Shown one piece after another: positions 48,093-56,033 of a stretch of DNA of 64,000 bases. Positions within the stretch are counted from its first letter, which is position 1. Each line of letters starts with the position of its first letter. The notes beneath the pieces were generated by a model that saw only the letters and a program-made list of their open reading frames with translations, had not been told where the DNA came from and made no database searches. Source of the DNA: Methanocorpusculum sp. (GTDB lineage: Archaea; Halobacteriota; Methanomicrobia; Methanomicrobiales; Methanocorpusculaceae); contig NZ_JAUSPQ010000008.1 of assembly GCF_030655665.1 (NCBI RefSeq), forward strand, positions 1 to 64,000, read 5' to 3'. The position numbers and the translations under genes were made by a program.

Positions 48093-48905
48093 ATGATGCA
48101 GAAAAGTGATCCCGGTCTTTCGATGGCGGTTGGGTTTGTGATGATTTTGATGATCATCGCGATGATCATTGGGGTGTGGGCGGTCGTCGGTGTTCCTGAG
48201 CAGATCAGGGATGCGGAGGATTATCATGCGGTCGGAGTGACAAACACATTCCTCGATTATAAAATTGCTGTTGATAATCAGCGTGCCCATGAATGGATCG
48301 GGTCGAATGTCAGTATGCTTATTCCTGCGGCATCTGCCTATGCCGACGGAGCACTCTTTATGACGGAGGATGTGGGCACTCTCAGGGTTCTGATCGGCGG
48401 AACAGAAAACAGTGCTTATGATATCAGCAGGCTGTATGCGACGTTTGGGACGACGAATACCCGCATCGGCTATGAGGCTGCCGGCGTGTATCGAAATGAT
48501 TACGGGTCAGCAGTCTGGGTGACGCCGCCTTCGATCACCATAGAAAAATCAGGGGATGATGTATATGTGACATTGATCGTTCCGGAGATGCAGGGATCGT
48601 TTGCGGTCGGAAGTTCCGAGGGGATCCCGGTGGATACCGGCTTAATATCTGTCACTACTCCGGTGGATATATCAACGAATCAGATGATAACCATAATCTA
48701 TACGGCTGACGAACTGTGGGATGCTGATGTGTGGAATACCTTTTTCTATGAAACAAAACTAAAGTATCAGAGTGCGGGAGTGGATATCATGAGTCAAGCG
48801 CTGTCTCCTTATGAGACATCGCTGACGATTTATCCATCTCCGGGTGGAGATATGTATCTAACACTCATCAAGCCGGTGTATATCGTTGATGTCAGGAGGC
48901 ATTGA
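48093..48905 (+). CDS. Pilin-like protein 3 with class III signal
   Basis: The 270-residue protein starts at ATG 48093, two bases after the previous stop; GTG 48087 is a possible earlier start. The leader MMQKSDPG-LSMAVGFVMILMIIAMIIG has G8 before the hydrophobic helix, but the +5 acidic residue is absent. Paralogous strand TNTRIGYEAAGVYRN is visible. It probably completes a three-component pseudopilin set. Confidence 0.78.
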   Translation: MMQKSDPGLSMAVGFVMILMIIAMIIGVWAVVGVPEQIRDAEDYHAVGVTNTFLDYKIAVDNQRAHEWIGSNVSMLIPAASAYADGALFMTEDVGTLRVLIGGTENSAYDISRLYATFGTTNTRIGYEAAGVYRNDYGSAVWVTPPSITIEKSGDDVYVTLIVPEMQGSFAVGSSEGIPVDTGLISVTTPVDISTNQMITIIYTADELWDADVWNTFFYETKLKYQSAGVDIMSQALSPYETSLTIYPSPGGDMYLTLIKPVYIVDVRRH

Positions 48906-48906
48906 T

Positions 48907-50859
48907 ATGAAAAATGAGTCTGGTGTTTCCAGTGTTGTCGGTGTCGTTCTTCTGTTGCTTCTGGTCGTTCTCGCAGCTTCGGTTATAGGGCTGACTCTCT
49001 CGACAGCTACCCAGAACGCCGTTGAGAGTACACCAAATGTAGTTTTTACCCTTTCGCAGAATCCACAGATGCTGTATCACGCCGGCGGAGATGTTTTATA
49101 TAAGAGCCGGCTCGTATTTTATGATAATAGTGAGGATATAACTTATCAGACTCAGATCAATGGTGATGGTTCATGGACTGAGTGGCGTACCGGTCAGGCG
49201 ATCGAACTGCCTGACGGTTATTATGTTACTAATCTCACGATCATAGCTCTGGATTCGCTGGGCAGGGACCAGCTGTTATATCAGGGTTCAGGAGCTATTT
49301 CGACGCCGCTGCCGACGTACACCGTCACGCCGACGTCAACCGTGACACCCACACCAACTCCGACAACACCTACTCCAACGGTAACACCAACGCCGACTCC
49401 TGAACCAACGCCCAACCCGTATTATACCGTCGGCAGCGATCATGCTGATGGGTTTGCGACGGTTGAGGAGTTTGTCGAGTCGCTCAACAACTGGTCGAAT
49501 GCGCTGTACGGGGCGGATGTGGCAATTCTCTATGGTGGTAATAATATTGCCTTCTTTGGTGATGTCCCGATTGGGCGTGAACCGATTCGTATCACGGGTG
49601 AGATGGTTTCTGGTCTTTCGGGAAATAAAGTGGTTCTGAATACCTATGGTAGTAGCCTCCGAGAAGTTGAGTTTACCCGCGCTCCCGGGTATGAAGGTGA
49701 GCTTCTTGTAATATCCTCGGCTGCTGAACTGGAGACCACTGGTGCCGCACTTAAACTTGACGGGATGGGTCATGGGGCTGCCCCCCTTCTTGTCATTACC
49801 TCCGGGGGTTCTTTGGATGTGCACGGCCATATCACATTGATAAATAACACCAACCCAACCGGAGATGGAGGGGGAATCCGTAATGAAGGTTCGGTTTATG
49901 TCAGCACAAATCTGATCGTCTACAACAACACCGCACGAAACGGCGGCGGAATCTACAATCTGGGGGCGATGACTCTCTCTTCTCCTAATGATATCACAGA
50001 CAATGTTGCCTTGGAAAATGGTGGGGGTATCTACAATGAAGGACAACTCACCTCCTCATCTCTAATGAATGTATCAGGCAATACTGCACAGAATGGTGCC
50101 GGCATCTACAATCTGGGAGCGCTCACCTTCTCTTCGGCTAATGCTATCAAAGACAATGTTGCCTTAGAAAAAGGCGGCGGGATCTACAGTGCCGGTTCAG
50201 ATTCTGTATCAATCAAAGGTCCGATAACAAACAACTCTGCGAAGTATGGCGGGGGTATCTATAATGATGGGACCATTGCGACAACTGGTGTTATTTCGGA
50301 TAATACTGCATCGATCTCCGGGGGCGGGGTATATAATGCAGGTACCTACACATTTTCCTGGACCTCCACGGTTTCCGATAATCAGGCACAATATGGTGGC
50401 GGTATCTATAATGAAGGAGATATCCCCTTTTTTGGGGGGACTATATCTGGGAATATCGCTACGATAGATGGCGGCGGTGTCTATAATACCGGTGCGTTTA
50501 GCCCAAGTTCGTTCACCCTATCTAATAATGAGGCTGCAGGAAACGGTGGCGGGATCTATAACAGTGGGTCTACCCCATCTATGAGCGGTACTATTTCGGG
50601 TAACACTGCAAATAATGGTGGCGGTATATATAATACCGGTCCTATGACATTCAACGGCAATCTCGTTTCCAATACTGCCATTCAGAAAGGTGGGGGTCTT
50701 TATAATGCAGGGAGCTATACAATGAACTGGGGCTCATTTAGCGGGAATACGGCAGGGAATATTGGAAACAAAGTGTATGCAACAGGGACGTCAGTTAATT
50801 CAATTCCGACATGGCTTATTACTCTCACAAATGGCGGAGGATATTATTATGCGAATTAA
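48907..50859 (+). CDS. Pilin-like signal fused to a long parallel beta-helix
   Basis: The 650-residue protein starts at ATG 48907, one base after the previous stop. It has a class III-like N-terminus, MKNESG-VSSVVGVVLLLLLVV; an ectodomain of 100 residues; a threonine-proline linker (TPTPTPTTPTPTVTPTPTPEP, about 138-165); then from about 320 twelve turns containing GGGIYN-type repeats (for example NGGGIYNEG, YGGGIYNDG), as in Pmp-like beta-helix adhesins. This would be a pilus-tip or surface adhesin. The protein ends GGGYYYAN, and a plausible continuation lies in another frame (see findings). Confidence 0.85.
   Translation: MKNESGVSSVVGVVLLLLLVVLAASVIGLTLSTATQNAVESTPNVVFTLSQNPQMLYHAGGDVLYKSRLVFYDNSEDITYQTQINGDGSWTEWRTGQAIELPDGYYVTNLTIIALDSLGRDQLLYQGSGAISTPLPTYTVTPTSTVTPTPTPTTPTPTVTPTPTPEPTPNPYYTVGSDHADGFATVEEFVESLNNWSNALYGADVAILYGGNNIAFFGDVPIGREPIRITGEMVSGLSGNKVVLNTYGSSLREVEFTRAPGYEGELLVISSAAELETTGAALKLDGMGHGAAPLLVITSGGSLDVHGHITLINNTNPTGDGGGIRNEGSVYVSTNLIVYNNTARNGGGIYNLGAMTLSSPNDITDNVALENGGGIYNEGQLTSSSLMNVSGNTAQNGAGIYNLGALTFSSANAIKDNVALEKGGGIYSAGSDSVSIKGPITNNSAKYGGGIYNDGTIATTGVISDNTASISGGGVYNAGTYTFSWTSTVSDNQAQYGGGIYNEGDIPFFGGTISGNIATIDGGGVYNTGAFSPSSFTLSNNEAAGNGGGIYNSGSTPSMSGTISGNTANNGGGIYNTGPMTFNGNLVSNTAIQKGGGLYNAGSYTMNWGSFSGNTAGNIGNKVYATGTSVNSIPTWLITLTNGGGYYYAN
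49318..49420 (+). repeat. Thr-Pro codon repeat (linker)
   Basis: ACN-CCN codons repeat here and encode the proline-threonine linker of the beta-helix protein. It is probably an extended, glycosylatable spacer. Confidence 0.8.
49866..50720 (+). repeat. GGGIYN-type imperfect repeats
   Basis: About twelve copies of a 20-30-residue unit with GGGIYN or GGGVYN encode the beta-helix. They drift in sequence, so they are old rather than recent expansions. Confidence 0.8.
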
Positions 50860-52340: not shown

Positions 52341-52641
52341 TCTTTCTCAGTGGATAATACCACATTCATTTTTCTCCTCTCTCAACCGATTTTTTGGCTG
52401 AGCAGGTGGGTATATAAAAAACCGGTCGCAAACAGGCGGCTGGTATTTTTTCTTGAGCCGACACCATTCGTGTATTTATATCTAATCATTTTGCTAAAAA
52501 TCTGCAATAACTTTAGGACTATATCAATTTCACTCCAATATGCTGGTAGAGAAAAAACCACGGGAATGTCCGCCCGGTAGTTTTTTCAGGAAATTCACCA
52601 ATGAAAACAGCACTAAACCCCCAAATCGGAGAATTCGTCGA
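52341..52641. other. Leader region of the helicase-like gene
   Basis: The 301-base gap holds a TATA-like GGTATATAAAAAACC (52408-52422), a hairpin at 52551-52587 and a 14-codon ORF (52601-52645, MKTALNPQIGEFVE) whose TGA overlaps the ATG of the helicase-like gene as ATGA. The short ORF could couple translation, or be a remnant of an upstream gene. Confidence 0.45.
52551..52587 (+). promoter_or_regulatory. Long hairpin in the helicase-like gene leader
   Basis: GAAAAAAC...GTTTTTTC encloses CGGG...CCCG, giving a two-part stem that ends in a T-run like an intrinsic terminator. It lies inside the longer possible reading frame, which argues for the start at 52642, and could act as an attenuator. 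Confidence 0.45.
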
Positions 52642-54294
52642 ATGACCGGAAACATCACCGCAAACGACCTTGCATACTACTGCCCGCCTGTTCAGTCATC
52701 TTCCCAGGATATGACACGGCCCGCCGACTGCCGGCCGATCAGCGAGCCGACGGTCTACTTTATCGCAGAAAGTGTCAGCGAATCACTTCGCTGGATCAAC
52801 ATCGCCTTCAAACGGTACAATCGGGAAAAAGGCCCCTCGGTCTTCTATCAGAACGGTCGCCTTGTCTGGATCGCCCGTGACGAAAACGGTTCGTACCAGA
52901 TCTATCCGCTCGACAGAAACCGGCTTCGCTTCATCCTTGCCGACTACACCTGGCTGAACGCAAAGACCCGCGAACCATGCAAACTCAGCAGCGACCTCCT
53001 CGACACCGTTATCAGCACGCCTCCCGGGTACCTCCCAAACGTCCCTGTCCTCAAAGGACTCTACTCCGGTGCTCTCCTCACTACCGGCGGTCGGATCGTG
53101 GCCGTCAAAGGATATGATGCCGAAACTGCTCTGTACCTTACGACCACTTACGACATCCCTCCGGTACCGGAACACCCAGATCCTGCCGACATAATCGAAG
53201 CCACGACCGCCATCAACGACCTCTTCGAAGAGTTCCTCTTTGAAACCGAATGCGACCGCCAGAATGCCATCCTTCTCCTCGGAACAGCCGTATTCCGTCC
53301 CATGATCAAAGGACCAGTTCCCATCGGCATCATCGATAAAAACGCTTCCGGAGCCGGCGGGACGCTCCTCTCTCAGCTGATCGGGGCACTCGCCTATGGG
53401 ACTATCCCTTCGGTCTACTCGGCGACCAAACGCAAAGACGAATTCGAAAAGATCATCCGTTCGATCACCAAAGCAAACCCCTTCATCGCCATCATCGACA
53501 ACCTCGAGACCGGCATGGACTGGACGCCTGCCGCACTCCTCTCTGCCACGTCCGGCACCGGCGAAGTCATCAGCCGGAACATGGGCAGCTTCGACTCGTT
53601 CACCGCTGAGGCGACCACCCTCTACATCGTAAACGGCATCAACGTCGAGATCCGTGCCGATGTCACCCGTCGTATGTTTCGCATCCGGCTCGTCACCAAA
53701 AAAGCCGGGCAGAACGGGTATTCCCGCACAAAAACAGAACTCCTCGGAGAAGCCGTCCTTCGCCAGCCGAAAATCATCTGGGCATTCGCCGTTCTGTACC
53801 AGAACTGGAAAGCCGCCGGCTACCCTGCTCCGCCCAAATGTTCCGGCGACATCTCCGAATATCCTGAATGGGATCACCATGTTCGGGGTCTCCTTTCCCA
53901 TGCCGGATACACCCGGATGCTGGAAAATCAGGGAGAGTTACAGACCGGTGAAAACGATTCAGACGTGGAAGGAGCCGGTCTCATCACCATACTGAAAAAG
54001 AAGTTTCCTGAAGGCAGTTTCACTCCCGGCAGGGTCAGGGCAGTCCTTGAAAAAGAAGCTGAACTCAGGAAAAACGGGTGTCCGAGTCTGGATGAACTCC
54101 TGGATCATGCACCCGAAGATATTATCCGTCTCTCACTCCAGAATGCACTGACAACGACAAAAGTCGGCTACTGGCTCAAAAAATATGTTGATGCAAAGTA
54201 TGCGGGCTGTGATCTCTTCCTCAAACGGGGTGAACGTGTCGGGGAGGGACGGAAGTACAGCCTTGTTTCGATCGAATCCCAGACGACACTCTGA
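52642..54294 (+). CDS. Phage/plasmid-type helicase-like protein with altered Walker A
   Basis: The 550-residue protein starts at ATG 52642, coupled to a short upstream ORF; ATG 52540 is an alternative. It has the layout of the ATPase half of mobile-element primase-helicases: after an N-terminal domain comes KGPVPIGIIDKNASGAGGTLLSQL in the Walker A position, FIAIIDNLE as Walker B, TLYIVNGINVEI as sensor, and DVTRRMFRIRL as arginine finger. The Walker A lysine is replaced: residues 237-241 read GAGGT. The codons are GC-richer than the neighbours. It lies in the middle of the pilus locus with iteron arrays downstream, so it is probably of mobile origin. ATP hydrolysis is doubtful. Confidence 0.65.
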   Translation: MTGNITANDLAYYCPPVQSSSQDMTRPADCRPISEPTVYFIAESVSESLRWINIAFKRYNREKGPSVFYQNGRLVWIARDENGSYQIYPLDRNRLRFILADYTWLNAKTREPCKLSSDLLDTVISTPPGYLPNVPVLKGLYSGALLTTGGRIVAVKGYDAETALYLTTTYDIPPVPEHPDPADIIEATTAINDLFEEFLFETECDRQNAILLLGTAVFRPMIKGPVPIGIIDKNASGAGGTLLSQLIGALAYGTIPSVYSATKRKDEFEKIIRSITKANPFIAIIDNLETGMDWTPAALLSATSGTGEVISRNMGSFDSFTAEATTLYIVNGINVEIRADVTRRMFRIRLVTKKAGQNGYSRTKTELLGEAVLRQPKIIWAFAVLYQNWKAAGYPAPPKCSGDISEYPEWDHHVRGLLSHAGYTRMLENQGELQTGENDSDVEGAGLITILKKKFPEGSFTPGRVRAVLEKEAELRKNGCPSLDELLDHAPEDIIRLSLQNALTTTKVGYWLKKYVDAKYAGCDLFLKRGERVGEGRKYSLVSIESQTTL

Positions 54295-54300
54295 GTGTCG
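54284..54300 (+). terminator. Stem-loop at the end of the helicase-like gene
   Basis: CGACACT-CTG-AGTGTCG is a perfect 7-bp stem spanning the stop codon (54292-54294). A second one, GTGTCAC-N12-GTGACAC, follows at 54305-54330 and includes two copies of the TGTCAC element. It may end transcription or belong to the iteron region. Confidence 0.4.
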
Positions 54301-54719
54301 GTTCGTGTCACCTGATGATCTGAGTGACACGATCATCTCTCCTATTTTACCGTTATTTCTGAATCTAAGACGTTCTGTCACTTCTGTCACTTATGTCGAT
54401 GTTTTTTGTATCCGTGATCCACAGCAGAATACTCCAGTATATTGTAGAGACCGATAAACATTGACAATAGTGACATAAGTGACAGAAAGAGTTAGATTGG
54501 TAAATAAGTCTTAAATATGGGTTGGATTCATGTCACTTCCAAAATACAAAGCGGCAGAATTGACATAGGGTTCTTTGGTAATTACAAGAGTATCAATCAA
54601 GATCTCAATTTGTTGGAGAAAAGACATAGCTGAGTAAAATATACCTATACATCAGAAAAGGATGGGTTAATACGTTATTTCGGTGATAAGAAATAGCGTA
54701 AATGGTATCTGCAGGTTTG
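54295..54719. other. Non-coding region carrying the iteron arrays
   Basis: These 425 bases separate the helicase-like gene from the stop of the PKD-pilin gene. The first half holds stem-loops and the iterons. The second half (54540-54719) is AT-rich with no repeat or gene I can identify. Confidence 0.6.
54373..54487. repeat. Two converging arrays of 9-bp iterons
   Basis: The left array is TTCTGTCAC, TTCTGTCAC, TTATGTCGA (54373-54399). The right array on the opposite strand is TTCTGTCAC, TTATGTCAC, TATTGTCAA (54487 back to 54461). Each unit abuts the next, so spacing is exactly 9 bp. Positions 54382-54397 and 54472-54487 are a perfect 16-bp inverted repeat. An AT-rich 61-bp centre separates the arrays. 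Further TGTCAC copies lie at 54306, 54324 (inverted) and 54531. This geometry resembles Rep- or regulator-binding sites. Confidence 0.7.
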
Positions 54720-55994
54720 TCATCCTGCATATCCCCCCATCTCAAGGGTGTAGATTTCTGCAATTTCCTCAGAGGTCAGCGGGAAGTCAACCTCGTGCTG
54801 CATTTCAGTGGTAAAATTGCCGTTATTTACATCCCAGCGGGTAACATCGTAACGTGATTTTGTCGGGATATTGAGAGGCAGACTCTCAGTTATCGGCCCG
54901 CGTATCGTGCCGGTGTCAACACCATAGATATACAGTTTCGATCTATCCTGCGGTGAAGTGCCCATCTGGTCATATACACTAGTTATATGATACCATTTCT
55001 TCTCAAGACTTGGAACGTGGTATTCGACCTGTGTGGATGGAGTTTCACCAGTTTTTTCAAAATAGAAGATCATCTGAAAGCCATGAGTAGTTGGGTTTGA
55101 AAATTGCAGTCTCCATACTCTATCGGTGTATCCGGTGCCGCCACTTCCGTCGCTATATCCGCGTCCTGCAATATCCCACAAACCTGTCGTATAGGTTTCA
55201 CTACTCTTGACCCACGTCATCGCGGTGATGCCCGGATCTCTCACCGCAAGTATCATTGACCCAGTTCCTGTATCTCCTGATGTGGTATTCCGGATATCTA
55301 ATCGAACTGTGTATGAGCCCGCTGTATTATACGTAAACACTGCTGCTTTCGTATCAGCTGTTTGTCCATTCCCGCTGGTCCAGGAATATTCTATATCAGC
55401 AGAACTTTCTTCGGCAGTGAACTCCACGGCAGCCTGATCGGACACAAAATGGAGCACGACCCAAATGTCAGCCAGATCTGCGATCACACCGGGAAGCGGT
55501 TTTGATCCTGAGATCCCCGTCTTCACCTGGCTCGTGGCATTCTTACCTTCTGTTATCACGGCAGTAAATGCTGCATTCACCTCTACCCCGCCTTCACGGT
55601 AAAACTGTTTTTCGGCAATAACCACTGACTTTCCTGTCCCGGTATAGACAACAGACACCTGATGGAGCGGATGAGTGATCCCAAGATCCCAGGTCAGTTT
55701 CATTCCCGGGGAAAAATCCACGTCTTCTGCCTGAAATGCCTGTGTCTGGTCAATCCCATCCACAAGGATTGCATATTCGCCGGCAGGAAGCGTGTCTCCC
55801 GAAAAATGGGTCAGGGTAATGACCCCGTTATTATCTGAAATGGTGATCCCAGCTATAGGCGTTGAATCCACATTTCCTGAATAGAGGATACCAACAACAA
55901 AGATCCCCGTCAGAAATATGGTGAGTGCAAGAATCAAAAGTGCGGCGATCACTGGGGCTACCCCATTATCATCCCCGCCCCCTTTCCAAATCAT
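54720..55994 (-). CDS. Pilin-like protein with PKD and LamG-like regions
   Basis: The 424-residue protein starts at ATG 55994; an in-frame ATG at 56006 would add four residues. Leader MIWKGGGDDNG-VAPVIAALLILALTIFLTG is pilin-like. After it come a small beta domain (TPIAGITISDNNGVITLTHFSGD), a PKD-like segment (YSWTSGNGQTADTKAAVFTYNTAGSYTVRLDIRNTT) and a roughly 170-residue jelly-roll-like end (LQFSNPTTHGFQMIFYFEKTG..WYHITSVYDQ), as in LamG-type lectins. This suggests a carbohydrate- or surface-binding minor pilin. It is divergent from the secretion ATPase. Confidence 0.8.
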   Translation of the reverse strand: MIWKGGGDDNGVAPVIAALLILALTIFLTGIFVVGILYSGNVDSTPIAGITISDNNGVITLTHFSGDTLPAGEYAILVDGIDQTQAFQAEDVDFSPGMKLTWDLGITHPLHQVSVVYTGTGKSVVIAEKQFYREGGVEVNAAFTAVITEGKNATSQVKTGISGSKPLPGVIADLADIWVVLHFVSDQAAVEFTAEESSADIEYSWTSGNGQTADTKAAVFTYNTAGSYTVRLDIRNTTSGDTGTGSMILAVRDPGITAMTWVKSSETYTTGLWDIAGRGYSDGSGGTGYTDRVWRLQFSNPTTHGFQMIFYFEKTGETPSTQVEYHVPSLEKKWYHITSVYDQMGTSPQDRSKLYIYGVDTGTIRGPITESLPLNIPTKSRYDVTRWDVNNGNFTTEMQHEVDFPLTSEEIAEIYTLEMGGYAG

Positions 55995-56033
55995 GGTAAT
56001 ACCCATTTCTTCTCAGAGGATATACTCCTTTGC

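Follow-up and report, generated by a model that had tools for sequence, protein, structure and literature searches.

In the Streptomyces plasmid pWTY27, RepA binds an array in vitro and the basic replication locus consists of repAB together with that array (PMC3583192). In Staphylococcus, the Rep protein of SaPI islands and Cch2 of SCCmec recognize origins directly downstream of their own genes via a C-terminal domain (PMC7581432), and in the crenarchaeal plasmid pRN1 the origin is likewise found directly downstream of the replication gene, with little sequence conservation between plasmids (PMC4234260). It is because of these precedents that we read an array of 9-bp repeats, lying beside a gene for a helicase-type protein (Rep) in a methanogen, as the cognate origin (ori) of that protein, and the pair as a rep-ori module of the plasmid, virus or satellite type within a methanogen chromosome. 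We give this reading a probability of about 0.8.

The window, which is the whole stretch of 64 000 nucleotides that was analysed, opens contig C8 of a 1.81 Mb genome (G000), whose named close relatives belong to Methanocorpusculum (UBA425, UBA424, M. parvum and M. petauri). The array sits between the convergent ends of the rep gene and a type IV pilin gene (54720-56006, - strand), in the following setting:

52473-54565, + strand: conserved unit of short upstream region, rep gene and array, the sole block of the locus homologous to genome G013
52540-54294, + strand: rep, encoding a 584-aa helicase-type initiator-like protein (PHROG, tblastn and AlphaFold model)
53317-53379, + strand: Walker A region, residues 260-280, VPIGIIDKNASGAGGTLLSQL (alignment over 45 relatives)
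54214-54270, + strand: predicted wing hairpin, residues 559-577 of the C-terminal winged-helix-like domain, at which the exchanged cassette starts (predicted secondary structure; breakpoints in the pairs L023/L024 and L016/L017)
54303-54332, no strand: outer left inverted pair of TGTCAC, copies 54303-54311 / 54324-54332
54373-54399, + strand: inner left triad of 9-bp iterons, units at 54373 TTCTGTCAC, 54382 TTCTGTCAC and 54391 TTATGTCGA
54400-54460, no strand: centre, 61 bp, 62 % A+T
54461-54487, - strand: inner right triad of 9-bp iterons, units in minus-strand reading at 54479 TTCTGTCAC, 54470 TTATGTCAC and 54461 TATTGTCAA
54528-54565, no strand: outer right repeat pair, 54528-54536 with a weak partner at 54560-54565

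An earlier sequence-only reading of this DNA had proposed two converging arrays of three 9-bp units, a perfect 16-bp inverted repeat, further TGTCAC copies nearby and a mobile-type helicase-like gene directly before the arrays, all of which were borne out. Six units were located as two converging triads, four of the six matching TTNTGTCAC exactly and both innermost units being imperfect, and the perfect inverted repeat (TTCTGTCACTTATGTC) was found at 54382-54397 / 54472-54487. The array begins just past the rep stop codon, and the outer pairs supply the additional TGTCAC copies; one arm of the right pair is degenerate in G000 and better preserved in G013. The centre had been called AT-rich, which holds only in part, as it is richer than the window (62 % vs 52 %) but only mildly so. 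A single TGTCAC-type word was not enriched in the window (50 one-mismatch matches vs 52.7 expected), and a plain 7-mer count was too blunt to serve as an array test, so a converging-pair test was used instead. With the stringent test for converging tandem 6-mers, none of 200 dinucleotide shuffles of the array region scored, and within 788 kb of the 1.81 Mb genome four places did: this array, two others related to it and a repeat cluster unrelated to them. This last (C8:282126-282375; intergenic CACGAAAA-type repeats in both orientations, ACGAAA) was rejected, as it is without the triad-centre-triad order. The arrangement of the array, unlike the word alone, is no chance product.

The conserved unit shares 77.6 % identity with G013 over 2.1 kb, and the flanks are unlike. 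Other genes occupy this pilus site in four relatives. The ORFs around the unit encode pilins and a pilus ATPase, and a tie to type IV pili was considered, as several arrays lie near pilin genes, yet it was rejected with other arrays located elsewhere. Elsewhere in the window (48886-50859), a 657-aa protein has an archaeal pilin N-terminus fused to Chlamydia-type polymorphic membrane protein repeats. No integrase or att sites of the phage-inducible island (SaPI) kind were found in the unit, which holds only rep and the array.

Rep matched the profiles PHROG 19930 (DNA polymerase/primase) and PHROG 10537, and tblastn aligned it with the helicase part of primase-helicases from plasmids and phages; searches of Pfam and of PDB sequences gave no match. 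Its AlphaFold model resembles the SaPI5 primase-helicase (Z 13.6), D5, NrS-1 and PriRep1 (Foldseek, VIA-align), and the ring-helicase fold of the D5/NrS-1/SaPI type is present in the model. The C-terminal domain, residues 479-584, is predicted to be winged-helix-like, from a predicted order of helix-helix-helix-hairpin; a fold search with the isolated domain gave a best Z of 5.1, no E below 0.001 and no significant family. The gene is under purifying selection, with dN/dS of 0.06-0.25 and about 0.2 in many pairs. Class-level relatives of 540-1120 aa were found in other Methanomicrobiales, several with arrays of their own.

A canonical Walker A motif (GK[ST]), sought in Rep for ATP-driven unwinding, is absent. 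GGT replaces GKT, the catalytic lysine is missing and a lysine (Lys267) is found seven residues upstream. This leaves helicase activity putative, which counts against the origin reading. Among the genus members, whose sequences are related and so not independent, 15/15 are without the GK[ST] lysine and have the one seven residues upstream (DKN...GG[ST]), RKN or QKN replacing DKN in one group. The same combination occurs in class-level relatives, in the virus vir525 and in phages RcXuper and CcrColossus. The pattern is reciprocal, as proteins with a normal Walker A lysine have none upstream (window 53317-53379; L074-L088, L091, L208, L211 and L223), with the exception of pGP6, which has neither. 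The remaining active-site residues (Walker B DN and Arg378) are kept. We hypothesize from these alignments that the catalytic lysine may have been displaced to the upstream position in the Rep family.

A search for the array beside homologues of the helicase-like gene in related genomes had been suggested as a check. Arrays are indeed present there, although the TGTCAC word itself was found in two species, the words being lineage-specific. A search limited to TGTCAC for this reason overlooks homologous arrays and would give a false refutation; rather than being absent near homologous genes, arrays accompany the homologues with words of their own. In the genus, 15 homologues (alignment A1) show the same layout from shortly past the stop codon. 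The word ATGTAGG is found at G000's own paralogue on contig C7 and in two species, and further rep-linked words include GTGACGG, GCCAACCT, GCTAACCT, CGTATA, TGTAGGCT and others. Seven of the 15 loci passed the exact converging-pair test; the eight that failed have imperfect repeats and words read by eye or pattern, and this failure also counts against the origin reading. A rep homologue was present in 10 of 12 high-quality congeners and absent from two. One genome, G023, holds two rep homologues with different words (L022 and L026) in a fragmented assembly with 3 % contamination.

A second TGTCAC array, without rep, was found at C6:321214-321322, in the gap where purE and an artJ-like gene converge with their 3' ends, and it shares a 94-bp register with the rep-linked array. 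Recurrence of the repeats at unrelated promoters, as ordinary regulator sites, had been named as an outcome adverse to a replicon, but the sole other occurrence of the repeats in the genome is this whole array. G013 has both TGTCAC arrays at the two corresponding places; in the alignment of its arrays with those of G000, iteron positions agree within a few bp and the intervening sequence differs. In four closer relatives without a TGTCAC-type rep at the pilus site, the purE/artJ copy is degenerate (G003 and G016) or reduced to remnants (G014 and G020). This comparison suggests that the copy is retained only where a matching Rep is present, in a small sample in which the G013 copy is slightly worn. 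The purE/artJ gaps of G014 and G020 are short but contain array remnants, which marks them as decayed rather than empty sites; in the miniature-transposon test, target duplication was not established.

Other rep-less arrays were found with other words: ATGTAGG at the tRNA-Gly/tRNA-Val-htpX site (G020 and G003), TGTAGGG at the htpX/tRNA site of G000 itself (C8:400597) and GTTGGC near pilin genes (G008 and G001). In G003 and G019 the word of the rep-less array differs from that at the rep gene, which counts against the origin reading; the rep-linked cassette may have been exchanged after the copy was made. A converging array with the word GTGACGAAT lies between two genes in G009 (L188:1545-1660), with no rep in the 3 kb stretch seen.

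The manner in which the words change was apparent from two pairs of closely related loci. L023 and L024 are 97-100 % identical in DNA through the greater part of the gene, but about 50 % identical over its final 75 bp and the array, and L016 and L017 show the same drop. The breakpoint falls within the codons of the predicted C-terminal hairpin, and the helix before the hairpin is identical. Past the breakpoint dS climbs from 0.11 to 1.83 in one pair and from 0.30 to saturation in the other, and this jump at synonymous sites indicates recombinational replacement, not merely rapid protein evolution. Tails were more alike in same-word pairs at similar core identity (Mann-Whitney p 5e-5), for pairs that are not independent and include some words assigned by eye. 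Upstream flanks are kept within groups and downstream flanks are mostly different. These comparisons show that the repeat word and a few residues, the presumed readers of that word, are exchanged jointly, as one cassette. The variable stretch just 3' of the rep array often holds defence-type genes (GmrSD_N, HNH, SLFN_AlbA_2 and UvrD; L212-L216, L009:8980-12402), and in one group ileS is conserved beyond it.

Of 44 rep-like genes, 18 gave a positive converging-pair test on their 3' side, compared to one match in about 8 800 shuffles. The layout occurs 3' of the gene in the free plasmids pCM32, pA32H2, pWTY27 and AZO_p2 and in the virus vir525; a 71 %-identical relative of the vir525 protein has a different word. 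Rep with a downstream array thus recurs across Methanomicrobiales, a methanogen virus and bacterial plasmids, each lineage with its own word. The earlier suggestion that the arrays may form a replicon core, integrated or domesticated, is supported by this in the replicon sense, as the same layout stands beside homologous reps in free plasmids, pWTY27 among them, and in viruses. A search of viral contigs with the family alignment found nothing, and no free replicon combining the TGTCAC word with a related Rep was found in the viral-contig searches. Among viral contigs with TGTCACTTN arrays, L181:11395-11705 has a 3+3 converging layout with outer repeats, and on L183:11273-11375 a TGTCAC array lies directly 3' of an 827-aa gene. 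The TGTCAC word common to viral contigs and G000 is probably due to convergence.

The cumulative T-A skew of G000 has its minimum, at about 96 kb of contig C6, at the single cdc6 gene (C6:92260; about 92-96 kb, L136), which is likely the main chromosome origin. An Orc1/Cdc6-type origin was not found at the arrays, with no cdc6 nearby and no skew inflection; the missing inflection at either array counts against the origin reading, and long-term chromosomal origin use there is unlikely. A quiescent or occasionally active replicon, or a role in incompatibility, is possible. By the latter account, the resident Rep and its arrays would handcuff or titrate incoming plasmids and viruses with the same iterons, with cassette exchange tracking the changing invaders. 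The lack of a skew footprint of replication, the presence in one genome of rep-less arrays whose word matches, the exchange of cassettes, the defence-type genes often 3' of the array and a conserved unit without an integrase would all suit such a decoy, but the viral-contig searches gave no free replicon that pairs the TGTCAC word with a related Rep, and we consider it unlikely as the main explanation. A dead relic of an integrated plasmid is more doubtful still. It would fit the absence of other replicon genes from the unit, the lack of a skew signal and the purE/artJ copies that are degenerate or mostly deleted where the matching rep is missing, but the rep gene is intact, many pairs give a dN/dS of about 0.2, and the iterons have kept their spacing from one species to another. 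The idea of a further standing chromosomal origin, firing every cycle, would agree with a layout like that of characterized origins and with the conservation of rep; it was rejected on skew, which shows no change at C6:321 kb or C8:54 kb, and with the homologue absent from 2/12 high-quality congeners it is very improbable. Short inverted repeats are common in operators, but a role as operators, whether for some ordinary transcription factor that controls genes nearby or for Rep itself (the autoregulatory site of the sequence-only reading), is the least credible of these, as rep-linked arrays lie 3' of the gene, the one in the window not at a promoter, both TGTCAC arrays lie between convergent genes, the words do not recur at promoters and only whole arrays score in 788 kb.

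The reading of the array as the origin of the adjacent Rep is supported by the arrays 3' of genus homologues with other words, the converging pairs beside 18 of 44 rep-like genes, the like layout of pWTY27 and other free replicons, the resemblance in fold to self-loading initiator helicases, the joint replacement of wing and array, the more similar tails of same-word pairs, the conserved spacing between G000 and G013 and the dN/dS of 0.06-0.25. Under this reading, the C-terminal winged-helix-like domain would bind the 9-bp iterons, with the wing determining which word is read; each converging triad would take up one of two Rep assemblies, whose ring-helicase fold would open the centre between them. 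Binding by this Rep, the double assembly, unwinding and any present-day replication are what we infer. A bolder proposal, and one that we hold only tentatively and think unlikely, is that solitary chromosomal Rep-origin pairs and their origin copies in trans form a specificity-switching system, directed at incompatibility with invading replicons or at some other chromosome function, which evolves by exchange of the wing and array cassette on a ring ATPase with a relocated catalytic lysine.

Our study links an origin type of plasmids and viruses to methanogen chromosomes. It supplies matched sets from nature, with a short stretch at the C-terminus and a 9-bp word changing jointly on a protein that is otherwise near-identical, and these allow the evolution of origin-binding specificity to be tested directly. 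The reciprocal placing of the lysine raises the question of whether the ATP-binding loop has a variant form in this helicase family of plasmids, phages and archaea, and the rep-less arrays raise the question of why a chromosome keeps spare plasmid-type origins.

In comparison with known systems, pWTY27 (and the similar pCM32 locus) has a RepA homologous to Rep (tblastn E 5e-15), with an array directly 3' of its gene and four converging blocks at nearly the spacing seen in G000; it differs in being a free plasmid with a separate primase/polymerase gene, a canonical Walker A lysine (GSGKS) and another word. The staphylococcal systems, SaPI Rep-ori and Cch2 of SCCmec with a putative origin, share the fold of a self-loading initiator helicase and short iterons directly downstream; they differ as parts of mobile islands that carry integration genes, and in having a normal Walker A, the G000 pair being solitary, archaeal and chromosomal. 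The Methanosarcinales virus vir525 shares the helicase region, upstream lysine included (DKPAPGTGAT), and has an array on the 3' side of its gene, but its protein is 927 aa with a longer N-terminal part and is encoded in a virus genome. ORF904 of pRN1 is also an archaeal replication protein (primase, SF3 helicase and winged helix) with an origin directly 3', but that origin is a 100-nt stem-loop rather than converging iteron triads, and the two are likened by layout, not sequence. As the canonical Walker A is absent, the module is counted as a variant, not a standard member, of the SaPI/SCCmec/pWTY27 kind. The rep-ori type itself is thus known from SaPI and pWTY27, and the G000 pair appears to be a variant of it with an exchangeable recognition cassette.
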